A stretch of 64,000 nucleotides of DNA, taken from NCBI GenBank assembly GCA_021796225.1, contig JAJYOL010000002.1:62001-126000 (forward strand), read 5' to 3'. The stretch comes from Microcaldota archaeon (GTDB taxonomy: Archaea; Micrarchaeota; Micrarchaeia; Micrarchaeales; CABMGC01). The notes beneath the pieces were generated by a model, which was not told the DNA's origin, searched no databases, and saw only the letters and a list, made by a program, of their open reading frames with translations. Shown one piece after another: positions 5,925 through 48,658 of the stretch. How positions within the stretch are numbered: the stretch's first letter is position 1; every line of letters starts with the position of its first letter. The translations under genes were made by a program, and so were the position numbers.

Positions 5925-6030
5925 CGGGCCCGGCGGGAGTTTCATGTGCCTCTTTTGCAAGAAGCTCATTTTGAACCCGCGACCGTCAGCTTAGAAGGCT
6001 GCTGCTCTATCCAAGCTGAGCTACGGGCCC
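5925..6030 (-). tRNA. tRNA-Arg(TCT) with a T-loop intron
   Basis: Acceptor GGGCCCG/CGGGCCC with discriminator G. The D stem is GCTC/GAGC. The anticodon loop CTTCTAA reads TCT (arginine, AGA). The T stem GCGGG/CCCGC is interrupted in its loop after TTCAAA by a 31-nt insert (5939-5969). Removing it gives a normal T loop TTCAAAT and a 75-nt tRNA. The 27-43 pair at the anticodon stem base is G-A, a mismatch. CCA is not encoded. The gene starts 8 nt after the TatD stop. Confidence 0.92.
5939..5969 (-). other. tRNA-Arg intron, position 59/60, bulge-helix-bulge
   Basis: Exon bases TTCA (54-57) pair with TGAA near the intron end, giving a 4-bp central helix. It is flanked by 3-nt bulges AA^A (5' site) and AC^T (3' site), where cuts restore TTCAAAT. 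The inner helix is GCTTCTT/AAGAGGC closed by a GCAA tetraloop. This fits the archaeal splicing-endonuclease substrate rule (hBHBh'). Confidence 0.88.
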
Positions 6031-6038
6031 TATGATAA

Positions 6039-6848
6039 TTATATGTGAAAGAAGCTTCTTATGTTTTCAGATAGGACCTCCGCTGCTTCTCCGAACCCGA
6101 TTTCCTTTATTTTGGACACAAATTCGATGACGCCTTTTACATCAGACGGCGTAGCACCTACCACAGGGGAATCTGTCTCCGCTACTATATTACTTATGCT
6201 TATGGCGTTTATAATCCTTTTCCTGCGAGAGGATTCGCCTGGAGGTATCGATATGAGATGGCCTGCTTTTGCCATGCGCACCGCATCCTTTTCCGTTCCT
6301 TCAAAGAAGTGAAACATAGCCCTTGTAGTGCAGTGTTTTTCCACTATGTCCATAACCTGTTGGATTGCACCGCGTGAATGAATGACTATCGGTATTCCAA
6401 GATCGTTCGCTATGCGTATTTGCTTGATGAATGCTTCCGCTTGCTTTTCCATATCGGAATGCTCCGTCTGTTTAACGTCAAGCCCTATTTCGCCTATTCC
6501 GACGAGATTGGTATTGCTCTTTATCAGCGGTACCAGATTGTCTATTGCAGAATAGTCATAATGCACTGCAGAAGGATCTATCCCGACTACACCGAACACG
6601 TTAGCTCCTGATGAAAGATGAGACGTTACGGCGTTAGATTTTGCACTGCCGCCGCTGGTTACCATGAGCTTTATCCCGTCGTTTATGGCATTCCTTATAG
6701 CCTCCTGTGGACTGCTGAAAAGATCAAGATGACAGTGCGCGTCGATAATTTGAATTTCTTCCTGTATGTAAAGTTCCCTGCGCATTTGCTGTGCTATTTG
6801 AACCATAGAACCGCCTGCAGAATTCTTGCCGCGTTCCTTGAACTCCAT
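6039..6848 (-). CDS. TatD-family metal-dependent hydrolase
   Basis: A TIM-barrel amidohydrolase-type protein of 269 residues. The first metal motif is IIDAHCHLD (residues 34-42), followed by GIDPSAVHYD, the metal-bridging glutamate in GIGEIGLDV, IPIVIHSRGA and the late aspartate in IVAETDSPVV. TatD proteins are reported as 3'-5' deoxyribonucleases. The N terminus is about 25 residues longer than usual. ATG codons at residues 15 (6806) and 22 are plausible starts, and GGCGG precedes the one at 6806. It follows dnaJ by 52 nt and precedes tRNA-Arg. Confidence 0.88.
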   Translation of the reverse strand: MEFKERGKNSAGGSMVQIAQQMRRELYIQEEIQIIDAHCHLDLFSSPQEAIRNAINDGIKLMVTSGGSAKSNAVTSHLSSGANVFGVVGIDPSAVHYDYSAIDNLVPLIKSNTNLVGIGEIGLDVKQTEHSDMEKQAEAFIKQIRIANDLGIPIVIHSRGAIQQVMDIVEKHCTTRAMFHFFEGTEKDAVRMAKAGHLISIPPGESSRRKRIINAISISNIVAETDSPVVGATPSDVKGVIEFVSKIKEIGFGEAAEVLSENIRSFFHI

Positions 6849-6900
6849 CCTGTTACTTGTGTACTTTTTGATTTATACTGCTTTCGGAGATCTTTGTCTT

Positions 6901-8010
6901 TCAGAAAAAGCCGAAATGCCTCCCGTCCCCTTTCCTGTCGCTTAGCTGTTTGAAGTTTTCTATAATGGAACGTTCTTCTGCCGACAGGGTCTTTGGCATT
7001 TCTATTTTGAGTGTTATGATTTCGTCTCCTGCCCCTGATCCGTGTGTCTTCTTTATGCCTTCGCCTTTAAGCGTTATCTGCTTGTCCTGCTGCGACCCTT
7101 CCTCCAGAGTTATAGTTTTGTTGCCGTTTAGAGTGGGAACGTTGATTTCACCGCCAAGTATTGCAGTATAGAAAGGAATTTTTACGCTCGTGTGTATATT
7201 GTCCCTTTCCCTTACGAAAATTTTGTGCCTCAGTTCTTCCACTTCGACATAAAGATCTCCGGTTCCTCCAGGGCCGTAATCCCCCATGCCTTCCAAACGA
7301 AGTCGTGAACCGTTGTATACTCCAGACGGGATGTGGACAGTTAATCGTTCTGATTGCACCGTGCTTCCGGTTCCGTTGCATAACCTGCATCTTTTTTCAT
7401 AGGATTTGCCCTTGCCCCCGCATCTGCTGCAGACTGCAATAGTCTGCATTCTTCCGATAAACGTATTGCGTATGGTCATTACTTGGCCCGAACCGTTGCA
7501 TGTCGGACATTTTTTTACTTTTGTTCCTGGTTCCGCTCCGGACCCCGAACAATGATGGCATTGCTTTTGATGGCGTATCGTAATTTCCTTATCGGCGCCT
7601 TTTGCTATTTCCTCGAGTGTGAGAGGCATGCGATATAGCACGCTCTGGCCGGTGCCTTCCCTGCCCCCACCCTGCCCGAAAAACGAGCCGAATGGGTCCC
7701 CGCCCGAACCAAAGCCGAAATTCACACCCATCTCGCGAAAGATGTCGTTGAAATTGAAGTTCCTGAAGATTTCCTCTTCGCTGTAATGCTGTCCGAACTC
7801 GTTGGGCCCGTACGTATCGTACTGCTTCCTCTTTTCAGGATTTCCGAGTACGGCATATGCTGCGTTTATCTCCTTGAATTTCGCTTCCGCTTCCTTGGTG
7901 TTGTTCCTGTCGGGGTGATATTTCAGCGCAAGCTCCCTGTAAGCCTTCTTTATCTGTTCCTGGCTTGCATCTTTTGGGACGCCGAGCAGCTCATAGTAGT
8001 CTTGTGTCAT
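6901..8010 (-). CDS. dnaJ: Chaperone DnaJ (Hsp40, type I)
   Basis: A 369-residue co-chaperone that stimulates DnaK ATPase and presents unfolded clients. The J domain (residues 1-70) has HPD at 32-34. A Gly/Phe-rich stretch follows (about 75-120). The zinc domain has all four motifs: [24 protein letters not shown] and CRLCNGTG. The C-terminal substrate domains include [20 protein letters not shown]. It is complete and lies 5 nt after dnaK, so it is in the same operon. Archaeal dnaKJ-grpE sets are generally considered bacterial acquisitions. Confidence 0.97.
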
Positions 8011-8015
8011 AAAGA

Positions 8016-9896
8016 TTACTTCTCTACTTTGAAGTCAGCATCAGTTGACCCGTCAGGGTTAGGGCCCTGCGGACCCTGGCTATCAGATCCCGATCCCTGT
8101 TCTGGTCCCGGACCTTGCTGGCCTTCGGATCCTGTAGAAGACTCCGCTCCCTGTCCGTACATGCTTTTTCCTATTTCCTGCAACAGTTCCTGAAGGGCGG
8201 AAGATTTTGATTTCATCTCCGCGACGTTGTTGTTCTTCAACGCTTCCTGCAATTCATCCTTTGCCTTGTTTATCTTGTCGGCAACGTCCTGCGGCACCTT
8301 TTCCTTGAACTGCTTGAGCGTATGCTCCGTTGTATATACGAGAGATTCCGCCTCATTCTTTGCCTGTACCGCTTCGAAATCCTGCTTGTCCTGCTCCGCA
8401 TACTGCTCGGCTTCGTGAATTTTCTTTTCTATGTCTTCGCGTGACATCTTGTTAGGAGCGACCACCTGCATGCTCTGCTCCTTGTTTGTAGCCTTGTCCT
8501 TTGCGGTTACGTGAAGTATCCCGTTTGAATCTATATCGAAAGTTACTTCGACCTGGGGTGTTCCCCTTGGTGCCGGAGGTATTCCAGTAAGTTGGAATCT
8601 TCCAAGCTGCACGTTATCTCGAGACATCGGACGCTCACCCTGCAGTATGTTTATTTCCACCGCTGGTTGGTTGTCGTCTGCCGTAGTGAATATCTGCGAT
8701 TTCTTTATGGGGATTGTTGTGTTCTTTTCGATTATCTTTGTCATTACTCCGCCCTGAGTTTCCAATCCGAGGGAAAGGGGAGTTACGTCAAGAAGCACTA
8801 TGTCCTTTACTTCGCCGGTAAGTACGCCTGCCTGTATTGCGGCGCCGAATGCAACCGCTTCCATGGGATCCACTCCGCGTTCTATCTTCTTTCCGAGAAG
8901 TTGTTCCACATATCTTTGCACTATTGGCATGCGCGTAGGTCCGCCGATGAGCACCACTTTTTCTATATCCGTAGGCTCGAGTTTTGCATCCTTGAGCGCC
9001 TGCATTACGGGTTTTGTGGTCTTTTCCACTATCGGAAGGACTATGTCTTCCAATTTTGCCCTTGTAAATGAATATGCAAAATGCACGGGAGCATTTCCGG
9101 GACCCATCGCAAGGAACGGAAGGTTTATTTCTGATGATAGTGTTGTTGAAAGTTCTATCTTTGCACGTTCTCCGGCTTCGCGGAGTCTCTGCATTGCCTG
9201 GGTATCCTTAGTGACGTCTATTCCCGTCTGTTTGCGTACCTCGTCCGCGAGGAATGCGACGACCGAGTTATCCATATCCGTTCCGCCAAGTTGGGTATCG
9301 CCGTTTGTAGCCTTGACTTCGAATACGCCGTTGCCGAATTCCATTATGGTAACGTCGAGAGTTCCTCCCCCGAAATCGTATACCAATATTTTCATTTCCT
9401 TATTTGCCTTGTCAAGACCGAATGCGAGCGATGCTGCCGTAGGTTCGTTTACAAGGCGGACCACTTCCAATCCGGCTATTTCTCCGGCATCCTTCGTAGC
9501 CTGCCTCTGATTGTCATTGAAATATGCAGGTACAGTTATCACTGCTTTCTTGACTTCTTCGCCGAGAAATGCCTCTGCGTCATTCTTTATTTTCTGCAAT
9601 ACCAAAGCGGACAGTTCCTGCGGAGTATACTGCTTGTTGAATATGTCGTATTTGTAGCTCGTGCCCATCTTTCTTTTGAAAGCATTTACAGTTCCGGTAG
9701 GATTTGCGACTGCTTGTCTGCGCGCCGGTTCGCCGACGAGTTTCTGCCCGTCCTTGGTAAACGCGACAAAGCTGGGGAAGGACTTTCCGTACAGAGACGT
9801 TCCTTCGGAGCTTGGTATCAATACCGGTCTGCCGCCTTCTAGTACTGCTGCCGCACTGTTACTTGTTCCGAGGTCTATTCCTATAATCTTTGTCAT
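8016..9896 (-). CDS. dnaK: Chaperone DnaK (Hsp70)
   Basis: A 626-residue ATP-dependent chaperone. The ATPase domain starts [20 protein letters not shown] and has [27 protein letters not shown] and [14 protein letters not shown]. The substrate domain has [18 protein letters not shown], and the lid ends in a Gly/Pro/Ser-rich tail. ATG at 9896 is chosen because AGGTG lies 6 nt before it; a GTG three codons upstream overlaps that site. [10 protein letters not shown] runs directly into the next strand without the insertion found in proteobacterial DnaK, as in Firmicute and archaeal forms. It lies 19 nt after grpE. Confidence 0.98.
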
Positions 9897-9915
9897 ATTT
9901 TTCACCTATTGAAAA

Positions 9916-10467
9916 TTATCGTTTGTTTTCTCCGTCTTCCTGTTTTTCCGGGGATTTCTCTCCGCTTGATACGATTACGGAAGCGGGGCGAAGCATTATT
10001 CCGCCGAGCGTATATCCTTTGCGGATCACTTCCAGTATTACGCCTTCTTTCGTTTCGCTCTCGCGCATTAGGACGATCTCATGCTTGTACGGATCGAACG
10101 CGCCGTCCGTTTCTATTTCCTTTAAGCCGAGAGATTTTAACGTGTTCATGATATTTGAATATACCAGCAGTATACCTTTTCCGCTGTCCTCTTTTTTTGT
10201 TGCCGCCAAAGCAAGCTCGAATTCGTCTATGTTGGGAAGAAGTTTTGATATTGCCTCAGCCTTTCCCACGAGTTTGGAATTTTCAAGTTCCTTTGCCGAA
10301 CGTTTTTTGTAGTTGTCAAACTCGGCCGCGAGACGCAACATCTTCTCCCTCATTTCGTCTTCGGGCTTCGCCTGAGGTTCTTCCTTATTTTCCTGGCGTG
10401 CGTCCTTTTGCGTATCTTCATGAAGAATTTCTTCTTCACTGCTTTCTTCTGCTTCTACGTCTTCCAT
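9916..10467 (-). CDS. grpE: Nucleotide exchange factor GrpE
   Basis: A 183-residue protein. The first about 40 residues are acidic and disordered, then a long dimerising helix (EDEMREKMLRLAAEFDNYKK) and a C-terminal beta domain with FDPYKHEIVLM and IRKGYTLGGIMLRPASVIVS. It releases ADP from DnaK. Its start overlaps the upstream regulator by 32 nt in another frame and has no clear ribosome-binding site, so translational coupling is likely. The order regulator-grpE-dnaK-dnaJ resembles bacterial hrcA-grpE-dnaK-dnaJ operons, although the regulator is not HrcA. Confidence 0.96.
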   Translation of the reverse strand: MEDVEAEESSEEEILHEDTQKDARQENKEEPQAKPEDEMREKMLRLAAEFDNYKKRSAKELENSKLVGKAEAISKLLPNIDEFELALAATKKEDSGKGILLVYSNIMNTLKSLGLKEIETDGAFDPYKHEIVLMRESETKEGVILEVIRKGYTLGGIMLRPASVIVSSGEKSPEKQEDGENKR

Positions 10468-10870
10468 GAAAATCGTTCTCTAGTATCTGATCCATTTCTG
10501 CCGCAACGCGTGCGAGTCTTTGGAATTCGTGCTCCATGTCCGCCTGAAGTTCCTGCAGCGTGCCGACCATGTCGCTTGATCTTAGGTAATATTTGCGTCC
10601 TTTGCGGACCACAATGCCTGAATTTATGAATCTGTTGAGATGGTATATTACAGTCGTACGGGGAGTTTCAAGACGATAATTCAATTCCTTGCTTGTCGTC
10701 CCTTTTCCGGATACGCTGTTGCCGATTATTTCCTTAAGTATTTCCTTTTCGGAGCTGTCCCTGCTTCCCGAAAGATCAAGCGATTGGCAAAACCATACTA
10801 CAAGCGCATCGAAATTTTGCTTGGACGGCTTGCCTACGGCTCTTATAGTTATACGCTCTTCAAAAACCAT
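10436..10870 (-). CDS. Winged-helix regulator leading the grpE-dnaK-dnaJ operon
   Basis: A 144-residue protein with an ArsR-like winged helix in its middle: TTSKELNYRLETPRTTVIYH is helix-turn-helix plus recognition helix, and GIVVRKGRKYYLR is the wing. The first 40 residues (MVFEERITIRAVGKPSKQNF onward) match no family I recognise. The C terminus is a helix with a very basic end (GRRRSRRKQ). ATG at 10870 is preferred over TTG six bases upstream, because the TATA box near 10898 would put the transcript start at or next to it (leaderless). A perfect palindrome lies just upstream. Autoregulation and control of the chaperone operon is inferred; it is not visibly related to Pyrococcus Phr. Confidence 0.85.
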   Translation of the reverse strand: MVFEERITIRAVGKPSKQNFDALVVWFCQSLDLSGSRDSSEKEILKEIIGNSVSGKGTTSKELNYRLETPRTTVIYHLNRFINSGIVVRKGRKYYLRSSDMVGTLQELQADMEHEFQRLARVAAEMDQILENDFHGRRRSRRKQ

Positions 10871-10892
10871 GTTCAAGGATAAGTAGTGTTAG

Positions 10893-10905
10893 ATATATAA
10901 ATATT
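10893..10905 (-). promoter_or_regulatory. TATA box of the heat-shock operon
   Basis: On the minus strand the A/T run AATATTTATATAT lies about 25 nt before ATG 10870, giving an expected transcript start at the start codon. A palindrome follows directly on its upstream side. Confidence 0.65.
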
Positions 10906-10911
10906 TGCTTT

Positions 10912-10932
10912 TTTACAACAAAATGTTGTAAA
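10912..10932. promoter_or_regulatory. Perfect palindrome, probable operator
   Basis: TTTACAACA-AAA-TGTTGTAAA: two perfect 9-bp arms with a 3-nt spacer. On the minus strand it sits immediately upstream of the TATA box, overlapping the region where TFB would bind (BRE). It could also affect the plus-strand gene at 11005. The 21-bp size suits a dimeric winged-helix repressor. Confidence 0.65.
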
Positions 10933-10961
10933 TTTTAGTTTTTAGTTGTCAGAAACCGAAA

Positions 10962-10986
10962 AAAGGGCCGGCATTGCGAGCCCTTT
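10962..10986. repeat. Inverted repeat AAAGGGC/GCCCTTT
   Basis: Seven-bp arms (10962-10968 and 10980-10986) with an 11-nt loop, 18 nt before the TTG start of the thioredoxin-NHL gene. It may be a 5' leader hairpin or a second operator. Function unknown. Confidence 0.45.
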
Positions 10987-11004
10987 GGATTATTATTTCT
11001 GCTG

Positions 11005-12537
11005 TTGGAATGTTTTGATGTTATGCACGGAATAGAAAAAACGCTCGGAATGCGGTGGAAAGCAAAGGAATTTCCAAACGGATTCACATGGTTAAATTCC
11101 AAGGGCAAAATTACCCTTAAAGACCTTAAAGGACAGGTAACGATACTGGATTTTTGGACTTACTGCTGCATAAACTGCATGCACATGCTGCACGAACTGG
11201 AAGAAATAGAGGGCAGATATTCCGACAAGCCCGTTGTCGTAATAGGCGTACATTCTGCAAAATTTACCAATGAGGCTGTTGAAAAGAACATCGAATCCGC
11301 GATTGAAAGATACGGGATAAGGCATCCGGTAATAGTGGATAAAAAAATGAAGATATGGAAAGACTATGGCGCGGAAGGCTGGCCGACAATAGTAATAATC
11401 GATCAGGAAGGCGAAATAATCTATCATAAAAATGGGGAAGGACAGTTGGAAACGATATCGAAGACCGTGGACAGGCTTCTCGGACATGGTGGAAGCGGTT
11501 CAAAACATATCGATATCGCGGCGCCAACAGCAACAAGACGCGGAGACACGCTGTCGTTTCCGGGAAAAATAGCCATATCGCCTGATGGAAAAAATATTGC
11601 AATAAGCGATACAAACAATTGCAGGATATTGATAGCCGATATTAAAAACGGAAAAATAAAACATGTAATAGGTGGAAAGCAGGGATTTGCGGATGGGAAC
11701 TTTTCTTCTGCAGAATTTTACAGGCAGCAGGGAATAACATGGAAGGATGACAACGTTATTTATGCCGCGGATACGGAAAATCACGCCATTAGAGAGATAA
11801 ATCTGGAAAGAAACAGCGTGAAGACGATAGCGGGAACTGGGAAAAAATCCGCATGGCTGGCTCTTGGAGGAGAAGCGACAAGGATTGGATTAAATTCACC
11901 ATGGGACGTAGCGTATGACAAGGATACGGAATCTGTGCACGTGGCAATGGCAGGAACCCACCAGCTATGGAGTTATATGATAGGTTCCGGCAAAATCGTT
12001 CCGCTTGCCGGAAGCGGATATGAGGGATTAGAAGACGGAAAACTGATGGGATCGCTGCTTGCACAGCCCAGCGGAACGTATTACAGTGAAGGTTTCCTTT
12101 ATTTTGCCGACAGCGAATCTTCAGCGGTAAGACGTATAAACATAAACAGCAAACGGGTCGAGACGCTGGTCGGCGAGGGACTGTTCGAATTTGGATATAA
12201 AGATGGCGGATTGAATGGGGCGCGATTCCAGCATCCGTTGGGCCTGTGCGTTGACGGCAATGACGTGTATGTGGCTGACACGTATAACAATGCAATAAGA
12301 AAAATAGACATTGAAAAGGGGGAAGTGACGACCGTTGTGGGACCCTCGTCAACACCGGGTGTTTGCCGATATGGCGAAAAGAACTGCGATACGTTGGAGC
12401 TGTACGAGCCGAATGACGTGAAAAAACTTGAGAATATGCTTTACATAGCTGACACGAACAACCATCTGATAAGAAAATTTGACCTTTCGGATGGAATACT
12501 TGGCACGTTTGAAATAGATGCGGAGGGGATGAAATGA
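11005..12537 (+). CDS. Thioredoxin-NHL beta-propeller protein (NHLRC2-like)
   Basis: A 510-residue two-domain protein. Residues 20-155 are a thioredoxin/TlpA-like domain with WTYCCINCMH, giving a CxxC pair at C55 and C58 and an extra C54, and the cis-proline region AEGWPTIVIID. From about 175 to the end it has NHL repeats (for example ISPDGKNIAISDTNNCRIL, GLCVDGNDVYVADTYNNAIR) forming a beta propeller. The same architecture occurs in NHLRC2. No signal peptide is visible, so it is probably cytoplasmic. The start is TTG at 11005 or ATG at 11023. It is divergent from the heat-shock operon and overlaps the next gene by 4 nt. The redox substrate is unknown. Confidence 0.85.
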   Translation: MECFDVMHGIEKTLGMRWKAKEFPNGFTWLNSKGKITLKDLKGQVTILDFWTYCCINCMHMLHELEEIEGRYSDKPVVVIGVHSAKFTNEAVEKNIESAIERYGIRHPVIVDKKMKIWKDYGAEGWPTIVIIDQEGEIIYHKNGEGQLETISKTVDRLLGHGGSGSKHIDIAAPTATRRGDTLSFPGKIAISPDGKNIAISDTNNCRILIADIKNGKIKHVIGGKQGFADGNFSSAEFYRQQGITWKDDNVIYAADTENHAIREINLERNSVKTIAGTGKKSAWLALGGEATRIGLNSPWDVAYDKDTESVHVAMAGTHQLWSYMIGSGKIVPLAGSGYEGLEDGKLMGSLLAQPSGTYYSEGFLYFADSESSAVRRININSKRVETLVGEGLFEFGYKDGGLNGARFQHPLGLCVDGNDVYVADTYNNAIRKIDIEKGEVTTVVGPSSTPGVCRYGEKNCDTLELYEPNDVKKLENMLYIADTNNHLIRKFDLSDGILGTFEIDAEGMK

Positions 12538-13409
12538 ACAATCATGGAAAATTGATAGCGCAGGGGAAGCTCGTCCAATTCAAGGCAACCGATGGGATGA
12601 TATTGCACGGTTTCCTGTCAGAATACGGCAAATCGGACACGTGTGTGATATACGTACACGGAATGGGAAGCAGTTTCTATTCGGGCAGACTTGTGAGCCC
12701 ATTCGCAAATGCATGCCACGACGCTGGATATTCCTTCCTTTCGATAAATACGCGCGGACACGATATGGAAGCCTATGAAAAGTTTGACGGCAATAAAAGA
12801 AAAGGCAGATGGATAGGCACCAGATATGAAAAATTCGAAGAGAGCAGGAAAGACATCGAAGGTGCGGTGAAACTTGCAAAAGCATACGGATACAAAAAGA
12901 TATTCCTTGTCGGGCACAGTACGGGATGCCAGAAGATATTGTACTACCAATATTCGATGAAAAGGAAAATTATCAATGCTTTGGTATTTCTAGCACCTGA
13001 TGACGATTACAATTTGAACAGGGTGAAATTTGGGAGAAAATGGATGGATATGGTCAGACTTGCAAAAACGTTGGCGCATGCGGGAAAAGGAAATGACTAT
13101 GAAAGGAAGTTGCCGTTTTCTCCGAATAGATTTCTTTCCGTAGCGGATATGAAAAACGTTGAAGCGCGCCTGTTTAATTACGACGGTAAAATGAGGGAAT
13201 TTTCATCGATTGGCATTCCCATTATGGTAGTTTTTGGAACGCTGGATGAAGGTGCGGTGAAGCCAGTATCAGAATATGTTGAAATATTGAAAGAAAAGAC
13301 GGCTGCAAAGACCTTTTGTTCCGCAATCATAGAAGGAGCGACGCATTCGTTCAAGAAGAACGAGAACGCCGTAGCGAGCCTTGCGGTAAAATGGCTACGC
13401 TCAGTTTAG
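12534..13409 (+). CDS. Alpha/beta-hydrolase fold protein
   Basis: A 291-residue soluble hydrolase-like protein. It has the oxyanion-hole loop YVHGMGSSFYSG, the nucleophile elbow GHSTG (Ser129), a late aspartate in VVFGTLDEGAV and a histidine in EGATHSF, so the full Ser-Asp-His triad is present. It resembles the DUF1749/esterase-type group. The substrate cannot be predicted. ATG overlaps the stop of the thioredoxin-NHL gene (ATGA), so the two form an operon. Confidence 0.85.
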   Translation: MNNHGKLIAQGKLVQFKATDGMILHGFLSEYGKSDTCVIYVHGMGSSFYSGRLVSPFANACHDAGYSFLSINTRGHDMEAYEKFDGNKRKGRWIGTRYEKFEESRKDIEGAVKLAKAYGYKKIFLVGHSTGCQKILYYQYSMKRKIINALVFLAPDDDYNLNRVKFGRKWMDMVRLAKTLAHAGKGNDYERKLPFSPNRFLSVADMKNVEARLFNYDGKMREFSSIGIPIMVVFGTLDEGAVKPVSEYVEILKEKTAAKTFCSAIIEGATHSFKKNENAVASLAVKWLRSV

Positions 13410-13421
13410 ATTTTATAATAA

Positions 13422-13526
13422 TGGACTCCGCGGGATTTTCATGCGCATGAGCGAAACGCACAGCGCAATTTGAACCCGCAACCTCCTGCATGCCATGCAG
13501 GCGCGCTACCGTTGCGCTAGGAGCCC
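13422..13526 (-). tRNA. tRNA-Ala(GGC) with a T-loop intron
   Basis: Acceptor GGGCTCC/GGAGTCC contains the G3-U70 wobble pair that marks alanine tRNAs, with discriminator A. The anticodon stem CCTGC/GCAGG holds loop ATGGCAT, anticodon GGC. The T stem GCGGG/CCCGC is split by a 33-nt insert after TTCAAA, at the same place as in tRNA-Arg(TCT). The spliced tRNA is 72 nt with T loop TTCAAAT. CCA is not encoded. It lies 29 nt after the LSm gene at the end of the RNA polymerase operon. Confidence 0.94.
13436..13468 (-). other. tRNA-Ala intron, position 59/60, bulge-helix-bulge
   Basis: Exon TTCA pairs with TGAA in the intron end (4-bp central helix), with bulges AA^T on the 5' side and AA^T on the 3' side. 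The inner helix is TGCGC/GCGCA. Cutting in the bulges rebuilds TTCAAAT. The central helix and bulge layout match the tRNA-Arg intron, although the intron bodies differ. Confidence 0.9.
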
Positions 13527-45277: not shown

Positions 45278-45360
45278 GCGCCAGTAATCTAGTGGTAGGA
45301 TACCAGCTTCCCAAATTTTGGAAAAAGCTGGATACCCGGGTCCGATCCCCGGCTGGCGCA
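45278..45360 (+). tRNA. tRNA-Gly(CCC) with a 12-nt intron
   Basis: Acceptor GCGCCAG/CTGGCGC, discriminator A. The anticodon stem CCAGC/GCTGG encloses 19 nt; taking out 45314-45325 leaves loop TTCCCAA with anticodon CCC. The spliced tRNA is 71 nt. The T loop is TCCGATC, so position 55 is C rather than U. CCA is not encoded. It starts 3 nt after the PAC2 stop, so it is probably co-transcribed. Confidence 0.92.
45314..45325 (+). other. 12-nt intron of tRNA-Gly(CCC), position 37/38
   Basis: Exon TTCC pairs with intron GGAA (4-bp central helix), with bulges CA^A and AA^A. The remaining intron is a 5-nt loop, ATTTT, so there is no inner helix. Cuts give TTCCCA+A. Confidence 0.85.
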
Positions 45361-45425: not shown

Positions 45426-46754
45426 ATGTACGGCACCGATATACTTAACGCATTAAGAAAAAACAAGATATCTATAGGGGACAGGATAACCTTTACAGTA
45501 CAAGGCAAGGAATACGAAGGTATTCTGATGCCAAGACCTGAAACGGGGGACGATTCTACACTGATAATAAAACAGGATGACGGGTACAACGTCGGCATCA
45601 AATACCATGATGGAACGATTTTAAAAATAGAAAGCAAGAAGGCGGAAGGCAATAAGAAGTCCAAAAACGCCAAGATGGAAGCTGATCAAAAACTCCCGAA
45701 AGTCACATTGCTGTATACTGGCGGGACAATAGGCAGCAAAATAGATTATCTTACTGGGGGTGTTCGTGTTCTTACTACCCCATCAGAGCTTCTTGGAGAA
45801 ATTCCCGAACTTGCAGGTATGGCGAACATAGAAGTCAAGGATTTGATGCATACTTTCAGCGAGGACATCTCCCACACAGAGTGGTCAAAGATAGCAGAAG
45901 CTGCGGAAACAGCATTCAATACCGGGAGCGTCGGTGTGGTAATAACCATGGGCACCGACACCATGCACTATACCTCAGCAGCGCTGAGTTTTATGCTCCA
46001 AAACATTCCAGGACCTGTTGTCATCACCGGTGCACAAAGAAGCAGTGATAGGGGCTCAAGCGATGCATTTACCAATCTGGCATGTGCTGTTGCAATAGCA
46101 GCTCAGGGTAAAATTGCAGAGGTTGGCATATGTATGCATTCTACCTCATCAGACAAACAATGCTCCTTTATTCGTGGAACCAAGGTGAGAAAGATGCATA
46201 CCTCGAGAAGAGATGCATTCAAACCGATAAATTCAACGGTTCTGGCAACTGTTGATATAGAAACATACAAGGTGGAATACGGCGAGGAATGTAAAAAAAC
46301 CACCAAAAAAACAGCAAAGAGCTATCCAAAATTCGAATCGAAGGTAGCACTAATTAAAATGTATCCGAACGCGGATCCTAAGATAATAGATTTTTATGTA
46401 GAAAAAGGGTACAAGGGCATAATACTCGAAGGAACCGGACTCGGGCACGTAGCGATAAACACTGTGCATAAGGAATATTCATGGGCAGAACGTATTCGCA
46501 ACGCGATCGGCAAGGGCGTCATAATAGGAATGACTTCACAATGCCTTAGCGGAAGGGTGAATCCAAACGTCTATAGCACCGCAAGAACGATTTCAGAAAT
46601 GGGCGTGACATACTGCGAAGACATGCTTCCCGAGGTCGCTCTCGTGAAACTTGGGTGGCTATTGGCCAATCATACAAGGAAAGAAGTTAAGGAACAACTA
46701 TCTAAGGACATTGTCGGGGAAATAAGTTCCCGCATAACATATAAGGAAATGTAA
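45426..46754 (+). CDS. gatD: Glu-tRNA(Gln) amidotransferase subunit D
   Basis: 442 residues. An N-terminal beta domain (about 1-85) precedes an L-asparaginase-type domain with LLYTGGTIGSKID (T98-T101), VVITMGTDTMHYTSAALSF and LEGTGLGHVAINTVH. It releases ammonia from glutamine or asparagine for GatE, which makes Gln-tRNA from Glu-tRNA. GatDE is archaea-specific and implies that no GlnRS is used. It lies 11 nt before gatE. Confidence 0.97.
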   Translation: MYGTDILNALRKNKISIGDRITFTVQGKEYEGILMPRPETGDDSTLIIKQDDGYNVGIKYHDGTILKIESKKAEGNKKSKNAKMEADQKLPKVTLLYTGGTIGSKIDYLTGGVRVLTTPSELLGEIPELAGMANIEVKDLMHTFSEDISHTEWSKIAEAAETAFNTGSVGVVITMGTDTMHYTSAALSFMLQNIPGPVVITGAQRSSDRGSSDAFTNLACAVAIAAQGKIAEVGICMHSTSSDKQCSFIRGTKVRKMHTSRRDAFKPINSTVLATVDIETYKVEYGEECKKTTKKTAKSYPKFESKVALIKMYPNADPKIIDFYVEKGYKGIILEGTGLGHVAINTVHKEYSWAERIRNAIGKGVIIGMTSQCLSGRVNPNVYSTARTISEMGVTYCEDMLPEVALVKLGWLLANHTRKEVKEQLSKDIVGEISSRITYKEM

Positions 46755-46765
46755 AAGGTGTTTTA

Positions 46766-48658
46766 TTGAATAATACTGAAAATGACATCCGCAGATACTC
46801 AGAAATAGGATTCATGTGCGGACTTGAAATACACCAACGACTGTCAACGCCAAATAAACTCTTCTGTTCCTGCTCTTCCCGTGGTGAAAAAGAAAACACG
46901 CTTCCAGAAGCTGAGATATCACGATATCAACGCGCAGTTGCCGGAGAAATGGGCGAAACCGACAGATCCGCAGAATTTGAGGAAAAACGCAAGGCAAAAT
47001 TCATATATCACATCCACAACGATACCACCTGTTTAGTTGATATTGATGAAGAACCCCCCCACCAGTTAAATATGGATGCTCTATCAACAGCGCTTTGTGT
47101 AGCAAAAAGTCTTTATCTTACAATACCTGACGAACTTGAACCGATGAGGAAGGAGGTCGTTGATGGGAGCAATCCAAGCGCCTTCCAAAGGACAATAAAG
47201 ATGGGGCTTGATGGAAAACTGGAAGTCAACGGCAGAAACGTAGTCATAACGGGCATGATGCTTGAGGAAGAATCCGCAGGCATAATTTCCAAATCACAGT
47301 CCGGAACGACTTACGATACAAGCCGTATTGGGATTCCCCTTGTTGAAATCGATACCGACCCATATTTGCGCTCTCCCACAGAAGCCAGAGACGCTGCACT
47401 ACGGATCGGATTACTATTAAGGCTAACCGGAAAAGTGCAACGCGGCATCGGCTCAATACGACAAGATGTAAACGTTTCGATTAAAGGGGGTGCGCGTACT
47501 GAGATCAAAGGACTGCAGGAAGTATCAAGTCTGGACAAGTTCGTCGAGAATGAAATACAACGACAGCAGGCACTTATACAAATAAAAGACGAAGTAATTG
47601 CAAAGAAAATAGGAGCAGTGGGGAAAACAACAGACCTATCGAACATTCTGGGACATACAACGGTTAGGATAATTCAAAACGAACTTAAGAACGGCGGCAT
47701 CGTTCTAGGTTTCAAGGTTTCCGGATTCAATGGCTTGCTTGGCAGAGAAATAAATCCGCAAAGGCGTCTCGGCAGCGAAGTGAGCGACTATGCCAAAATG
47801 GGGGGAGTAAAAGGCATAATACATAGCGATGAACATCTCGAAGGGTACGGCTTTACCATGGAAGAAATACGCGGGATAAAAGAAAAGCTTTCAATATCGG
47901 AAAAAGACGCATTCATACTGATAGCGGGAAGTTCTGAAAAAGTTTCAATCGCTACGGATTTTGCAATCCAGCGGGTAAAGTTGGTGCAATCGGGAGTGCC
48001 TCTGGAAACACGCGGCGTAAGCAACGCAGATTTGTATACAACGCGATTCATGCGCCCTCTTCCCAGCGGGTCCAGAATGTATCCTGAAACCGATCTGCAT
48101 CCTGTTGAAGTTACGAAGACAATGCTGGACGAGGCCCAGGCAAGCGCTCCAAACCCTGAAAAAGAGGAGAAGACTCTTCTCAAAGACATCGGCAATGCGG
48201 CAACGGCAAAACAGTTGATGCTGTCTCCATACTATTCGTTGTATAAATCAATAACTTCTTTGAAAAACATCGACAAACAATTCGTTGCAAACGTGCTGCT
48301 TCAGAAATTTACCGAATTAAGGCGTTCCGGCTTCAGTGTTGAAAAGATAAGCGAAGACAGGCTGCTTGAACTCTTCACGGCGTATTCCGAACGGAAGATA
48401 ACAAAACAAGGCGTAGAAGAGGCGCTGAAGGAAATCTCAAAGAACGATGTTGCAATATCCGAACTGCTCAAAACAGCAAATCTTCTAAGGATATCTGGAA
48501 AGGACCTTGAAAAGATTGTAAAGGAATTCATGGCAAAATCTTCCGATGCAGACAAAAATTCCCTGATAAGAAATATAATGGGCAAATACAGGATAAACAT
48601 AGACGGGGAGGAATTGCACGCCACGCTTGAAAAGTTGATAAAATGGAAGCAACAATAA
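46766..48658 (+). CDS. gatE: Glu-tRNA(Gln) amidotransferase subunit E
   Basis: 630 residues, the usual GatE size. The cradle domain starts GFMCGLEIHQRLSTPNKLFC with the zinc-type CSCSSRGEKE. The signature SNPSAFQRTIKMGLDGKLEV and PLVEIDTDPYLRSPTEARDA follow, then IGSIRQDVNVSIKGGARTEI. An AspRS-like insertion lies in the middle, and the helical plus YqeY-like tail ends the protein. The start is TTG at 46766, with AAGGTG 5 nt upstream. Confidence 0.97.
   Translation: MNNTENDIRRYSEIGFMCGLEIHQRLSTPNKLFCSCSSRGEKENTLPEAEISRYQRAVAGEMGETDRSAEFEEKRKAKFIYHIHNDTTCLVDIDEEPPHQLNMDALSTALCVAKSLYLTIPDELEPMRKEVVDGSNPSAFQRTIKMGLDGKLEVNGRNVVITGMMLEEESAGIISKSQSGTTYDTSRIGIPLVEIDTDPYLRSPTEARDAALRIGLLLRLTGKVQRGIGSIRQDVNVSIKGGARTEIKGLQEVSSLDKFVENEIQRQQALIQIKDEVIAKKIGAVGKTTDLSNILGHTTVRIIQNELKNGGIVLGFKVSGFNGLLGREINPQRRLGSEVSDYAKMGGVKGIIHSDEHLEGYGFTMEEIRGIKEKLSISEKDAFILIAGSSEKVSIATDFAIQRVKLVQSGVPLETRGVSNADLYTTRFMRPLPSGSRMYPETDLHPVEVTKTMLDEAQASAPNPEKEEKTLLKDIGNAATAKQLMLSPYYSLYKSITSLKNIDKQFVANVLLQKFTELRRSGFSVEKISEDRLLELFTAYSERKITKQGVEEALKEISKNDVAISELLKTANLLRISGKDLEKIVKEFMAKSSDADKNSLIRNIMGKYRINIDGEELHATLEKLIKWKQQ

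Follow-up and report, generated by a model that had tools for sequence, protein, structure and literature searches.

Results

The window, the whole 64,000-nucleotide stretch of DNA that was analysed, belongs to an assembly of a member of the Micrarchaeota (789 kb in 15 contigs, 83% complete) and carries two tRNA genes that are interrupted in the T loop. Both lie on the minus strand and both are single-copy: the pre-tRNA-Arg(TCT) gene (5925..6030) contains an insert of 31 nt at 5939..5969, and the pre-tRNA-Ala(GGC) gene (13422..13526) contains one of 33 nt at 13436..13468. The T arm of each reads GCGGG-TTCAAA, the insert, and then T-CCCGC, which places the insertion between positions 59 and 60. 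When the insert is removed in silico, the CCCGC stem and a 7-base TTCAAAT loop are rebuilt in both tRNAs. ARAGORN missed the two genes in their unspliced form and called them as tRNA-Arg(tct) and tRNA-Ala(ggc) after in-silico splicing; the Rfam scores of the unspliced genes were weak (31.6 and 30.5 bits). An earlier reading of the sequence alone had already proposed introns at 59/60 in these two tRNAs, with coordinates that proved exact to the base. The same site is occupied in Arg(TCT) of relatives. Among the tRNA matches of this 83%-complete assembly we found no second, intron-free copy of either gene, a check which that reading had named, nor of the gene for Arg(CCT). For comparison with the canonical intron region, the window also contains tRNA-Gly(CCC) (45278..45360, plus strand), with an anticodon-loop intron of 12 nt.

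In both precursors the exon sequence TTCA can pair with the intron sequence TGAA, and this 4-bp central helix is flanked by bulges of 3 nt each, AAA and ACT in the Arg gene and AAT and AAT in the Ala gene. Constrained folding gave the bulge-helix-bulge (BHB) form of tRNA-Arg(TCT) an energy of -18.5 kcal/mol, compared with -20.3 for the unconstrained minimum, and that of tRNA-Ala(GGC) -22.1 compared with -22.2 kcal/mol. The BHB thus lies 1.8 and 0.1 kcal/mol above the minimum, so the fold is accessible, though it is not the unique optimum: in the unconstrained T-arm fold, the insert forms a hairpin that sits on the loop without the TTCA/TGAA helix. The helix, the 3-nt bulges and the TTCAAAT loop expected after splicing had all been described from the sequence, and in-silico splicing together with constrained folding bore them out.

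Does the central helix leave a trace in the introns of relatives? To follow covariation, the base opposite exon position 57 was left free in the pattern. A57 was opposite T in 100 of 103 introns and opposite G in the other 3, while G57 was opposite C in 4 of 10, T in 3 and G or A in the remaining 3. The preference of G57 for C gave a Fisher p of 3e-5, a value which is indicative, since the sequences share a common ancestry and the counts are not independent. The central helices of some relatives are imperfect (A57 opposite G, or G57 opposite G or A), which implies a tolerance for relaxed BHBs. In 50% of introns a stem of 3 bp or more directly adjoins the central helix, compared with 5% of shuffled introns. 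Taken together, the covariation and the adjoining stem indicate that the pairing between exon and intron is probably real.

The sequence-only reading had noticed two such introns. A pattern search of the source genome raised the number of tRNAs with an intron at 59/60 to at least five, Arg(TCT), Ala(GGC), Arg(CCT), Ser(GGA) and Ser(CGA), with five matches and none in a reversed-pattern control. The tRNAs Lys-TTT, Lys-CTT, Arg-TCG, Arg-CCG, Glu-TTC and Glu-CTC of the same genome have an identical TTCAAAT loop and no insert.

Several further features of the tRNA genes in this genome deserve mention. The genes for Ser(GGA) and Ser(CGA) (G000:C7:17892-17920 and G000:C14:76109-76138, both on the minus strand) are interrupted twice, by the intron at 59/60 and by a second one in the anticodon arm, which is 13-14 nt long and in Ser(CGA) is located upstream of the anticodon. 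The anticodon loop of tRNA-Trp(CCA) (G000:C8:30525-30667) is interrupted by a 70-nt intron with C/D-box-like motifs (GATGATT), which resembles the guide-RNA introns in tRNA-Trp of other archaea. The D loop of tRNA-Leu(TAA) (G000:C13:3492-3553 and upstream, minus strand) apparently holds another non-canonical intron, about 20 nt long (TGGCTTTAACGGCCACAGAA). In the T loop of tRNA-Leu(CAA) (G000:C8:10858-10955, plus strand) there is a 13-nt insert, TTCAAAGCATTTGAACAAAT, which does not match the strict BHB with 3-nt bulges and is possibly of a bulge-helix-loop form. Lastly, about 57 nt at G000:C15:6234-6289 (plus strand) are closely similar to the 3' part of tRNA-Glu(TTC), with no corresponding 5' part. 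This fragment may be what is left of an integration, a pseudogene or one half of a split tRNA; elsewhere the genome has an intact Glu(TTC).

The survey of relatives used the pattern GTTCAAA-N6..36-TGAA-NN-TCC, which requires the TTCAAA loop and TGAA and is therefore biased towards the class of intron described here. A looser initial pattern, whose matches were at or below those of its control, was left out of the counts. All 10 genomes of the genus had T-loop intron matches (24 in total, against none in the reversed-pattern control), and in the family such introns were found in 49 of 59 genomes and 24 of 27 genera. Across the phylum 207 of 295 sampled genomes had a match; in the own and sister families the matches are frequent, with hardly any in the control, and they become sparser in more distant families, where most were not isotyped and several of those that were checked proved not to be tRNAs. 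The introns range from 12 to 42 nt in length and their body is not conserved. When the family loci were spliced in silico and then assigned to an isotype, 119 of the 120 distinct introns fell in the five tRNAs already named: Arg(CCT) with 31, Ser(GGA) with 29, Arg(TCT) with 24, Ser(CGA) with 19 and Ala(GGC) with 16. The remaining one is in a Pro tRNA. In nine genomes of the sister family, the introns occur in the same tRNAs except Ser-CGA, with the addition of Arg(TCG) and, rarely, Lys. Such a distribution, along with the other tRNAs that have the TTCAAAT loop and no insert, points to a recurrent set of genes rather than to a weak bias towards conserved T loops in general. One further genome, G278, has Arg(CCT) in two copies, each with a 41-nt intron, and these two introns are clearly homologous but diverged. 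In Candidatus Micrarchaeum sp. A_DKE, the genes for Ser(GGA) and Arg(CCT) have introns at 59/60.

Ala(GGC) offers a direct comparison within the genus, where the congeners G024 and G045 are intron-free and G038 is intron-bearing. At the site of the 33-nt insert of the source genome, the two intron-free genes read GGTTGCGGGTTCAAATCCCGC; exactly the insert differs, and 39 of 40 flanking bases are identical. Among the genomes of the family, intron-free Ala(GGC) genes mostly have G57 (TTCGAAT) and intron-bearing ones mostly A57, as if the A57G change and the loss of the intron were coupled.

The source genome encodes a candidate enzyme for the removal of these introns. An ORF of 384-387 aa at G000:C10 (about 45,636-46,799, minus strand), outside the window, contains two tRNA_int_endo and two tRNA_int_endo_N stretches in a single chain. 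Its homology to the epsilon2 endonuclease of ARMAN-2 (4FZ2, 9W2K) runs from end to end (query 9-384 on 12-387, E = 1e-151), and its best named relatives are Candidatus Micrarchaeota bins and Candidatus Micrarchaeum sp. A_DKE. Residues Y232, H248 and K279 are in register with the catalytic Y236, H251 and K282 of ARMAN-2, and Y156 and K157 with Y160 and K161 of the ARMAN-specific loop; the catalytic Y/H/K and the loop Y-K are kept in all 29 aligned sequences (the query and 28 relatives). In its full length, three-unit single chain, catalytic triad and loop pair the protein resembles the ARMAN-2 enzyme (PMC12397907, PMC6379350), from which it differs by sequence divergence only. The suggestion that the DNA comes from an ARMAN host with a three-unit epsilon2 endonuclease is supported.

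Discussion

We consider it very probable that these are BHB introns of the archaeal kind, located at position 59/60 and cut by the epsilon2 enzyme, and that they are old and have been inherited vertically in a fixed set of five tRNAs, with a fast turnover of the intron body. The anatomy of the genes, the covariation, the conservation of the site and of the tRNA identity, the intron-free orthologues and the enzyme with its residues can all be read directly from the genomes. From them we infer splicing itself, where the enzyme cuts, and whether introns were gained or lost. In the precursor, exon TTCA (positions 54-57) would pair with intron TGAA beside the T-stem, the intron hairpin would stack beyond this central helix, and one 3-nt bulge would lie on either side. 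The endonuclease encoded at G000:C10 would then cut each bulge after the second nucleotide, and an RNA ligase, presumably RtcB, would join the exons to give TTCAAAT. In the lineage, the introns of Arg-TCT, Arg-CCT, Ala-GGC, Ser-GGA and Ser-CGA would have passed from ancestor to descendant with repeated losses or gains. The ARMAN-2 enzyme is reported to cut both BHB and BHL introns and to need the Y/K pair of its loop (PMC12397907, PMC6379350, PMC4033280), and ARMAN-1 and ARMAN-2 are listed with tRNAs that have multiple introns and with a broad-specificity epsilon2 enzyme (PMC4033280). The enzyme found here should accordingly be able to excise the T-loop introns, and the splicing mechanism proposed by the sequence-only reading is supported by the BHB anatomy, the ARMAN host and the presence of this enzyme.

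Could the interrupted loci be silent, decayed genes whose function is served by intact copies elsewhere? A second copy could be missing from an assembly that is 83% complete, but none of Arg(TCT), Arg(CCT) or Ala(GGC) appears among the tRNA matches, the exons give a tRNA that ARAGORN accepts once spliced, and the interrupted form persists in 24 of 27 genera; we regard decay as highly improbable. We give hardly any credence to the idea that the inserts are an enlarged T-arm retained in the mature tRNA. The unconstrained fold, with its hairpin on the loop, would suit such an arm, but exactly the insert is absent from orthologues, its length varies between 12 and 42 nt around no conserved body, and the base that pairs with position 57 of the exon changes together with it. 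Moreover, an insert in the T loop is expected to disrupt the contact between the D loop and the T loop. We therefore rejected both the pseudogene and the enlarged arm.

The sequence-only reading had observed that the introns of Arg(TCT) and Ala(GGC) both end in CATGAAA, which is true, and that their bodies differ, and it took the shared end as a sign that one intron type had been copied among tRNAs. This conclusion is not supported. CATGAAA is mostly forced by the pairing: TGAA is set by the central helix and the A that follows it is the usual first base of the bulge. The motif is present in 32 of 165 introns of relatives, and on these grounds we rejected common descent as its explanation. In the source genome the bodies of these two introns are not notably alike (z = 1.43), and no near-identical introns were found in its different tRNAs, the best pair reaching z 2.7. 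Likeness instead follows orthology: within the genus, orthologous introns reach z up to 7.7 for Arg(CCT) and 6.9 for Ser(GGA), and the Ser(GGA) intron, (A/T)GC...GCTGAATA, is still recognisable in the sister family and in A_DKE.

Transposition of introns has been described in the Thermoproteales (PMC4090602), and it is conceivable that one intron type was recently copied between the tRNAs of the source genome into the conserved T loop by the routes proposed there, reverse splicing with recombination, or gene conversion between T arms that are nearly identical. Such copying would fit the use of one site by several tRNAs whose T arms are almost the same, and also the intron of Arg(TCG) in the sister family, which this tRNA lacks in the source genome. 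A simple, unmatched permutation also favoured it, with a within-genome mean z between different tRNAs of 0.78 compared with 0.34 +/- 0.09 (0/1000), but this signal was lost once intron length and GC were matched (p = 0.69 for the family, p = 0.15 overall). As the introns are also closer to their orthologues than to their paralogues, and the T loop is uninterrupted in further tRNAs that share its sequence, we think recent copying in the source genome unlikely. Two genomes of the sister family are different in this respect. The introns of Ala-GGC, Arg-CCT, Arg-TCT and Arg-TCG in G074 are strikingly alike (ATGCGCAAAATGCA, ATGCGCAAAAGCGCA, ATGCACAGAATGCA and ATGCAGCTTTACGCA), and in G075 those of Ala-GGC, Arg-TCG and Arg-CCT are alike; for these two genomes only, such similarity is suggestive of copying. 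Four tRNAs of G074 have very similar short introns in the T loop, which makes this genome the likeliest place for a recent copying event or gene conversion. Perhaps T-loop introns of this micrarchaeotal order occasionally move or homogenise between tRNAs with a common T arm, most clearly so in G074 and G075, in addition to an old core of five intron-bearing tRNAs that is inherited vertically. T arms of almost identical sequence would be the target for recombination or reverse splicing. We put this forward tentatively, as a possibility that is more doubtful than not.

How far is this new? Position 59/60 was listed among the known non-canonical intron sites of archaea in a review of 2014 (PMC4090602), and the breadth of the epsilon2 enzyme has also been published; the T-loop introns are real and largely expected within a known class. 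They share with the non-canonical BHB introns of the Thermoproteales and other archaea (PMC4090602) the 59/60 site, the BHB, the presence of several introns per tRNA, and the combination of many introns with an endonuclease of broad specificity; the difference is that here 59/60 recurs in five tRNAs throughout one Micrarchaeota family. Introns of the transposed Thermoproteales type have a parallel in the similar introns of different tRNAs in G074 and G075, whereas in the source genome they were not seen, and in the family, where likeness follows orthology, the signal is not significant. A published tabulation of T-loop introns over the Micrarchaeota was not found in the literature searched, which excluded the primary ARMAN paper (Fujishima 2011). 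The view of the T-loop introns as a lineage-wide example of a known intron class is well supported.

ARAGORN and plain Rfam searches miss or underscore these genes in the Micrarchaeota, so apparent losses of tRNAs there may be artefacts. The family also provides a natural series for tests of intron gain and loss, with the same tRNA present with and without the intron and with A57/T and G57/C pairs. Across the lineage as a whole, these introns link a splicing enzyme of broad specificity with unusual substrates that form a predictable set.
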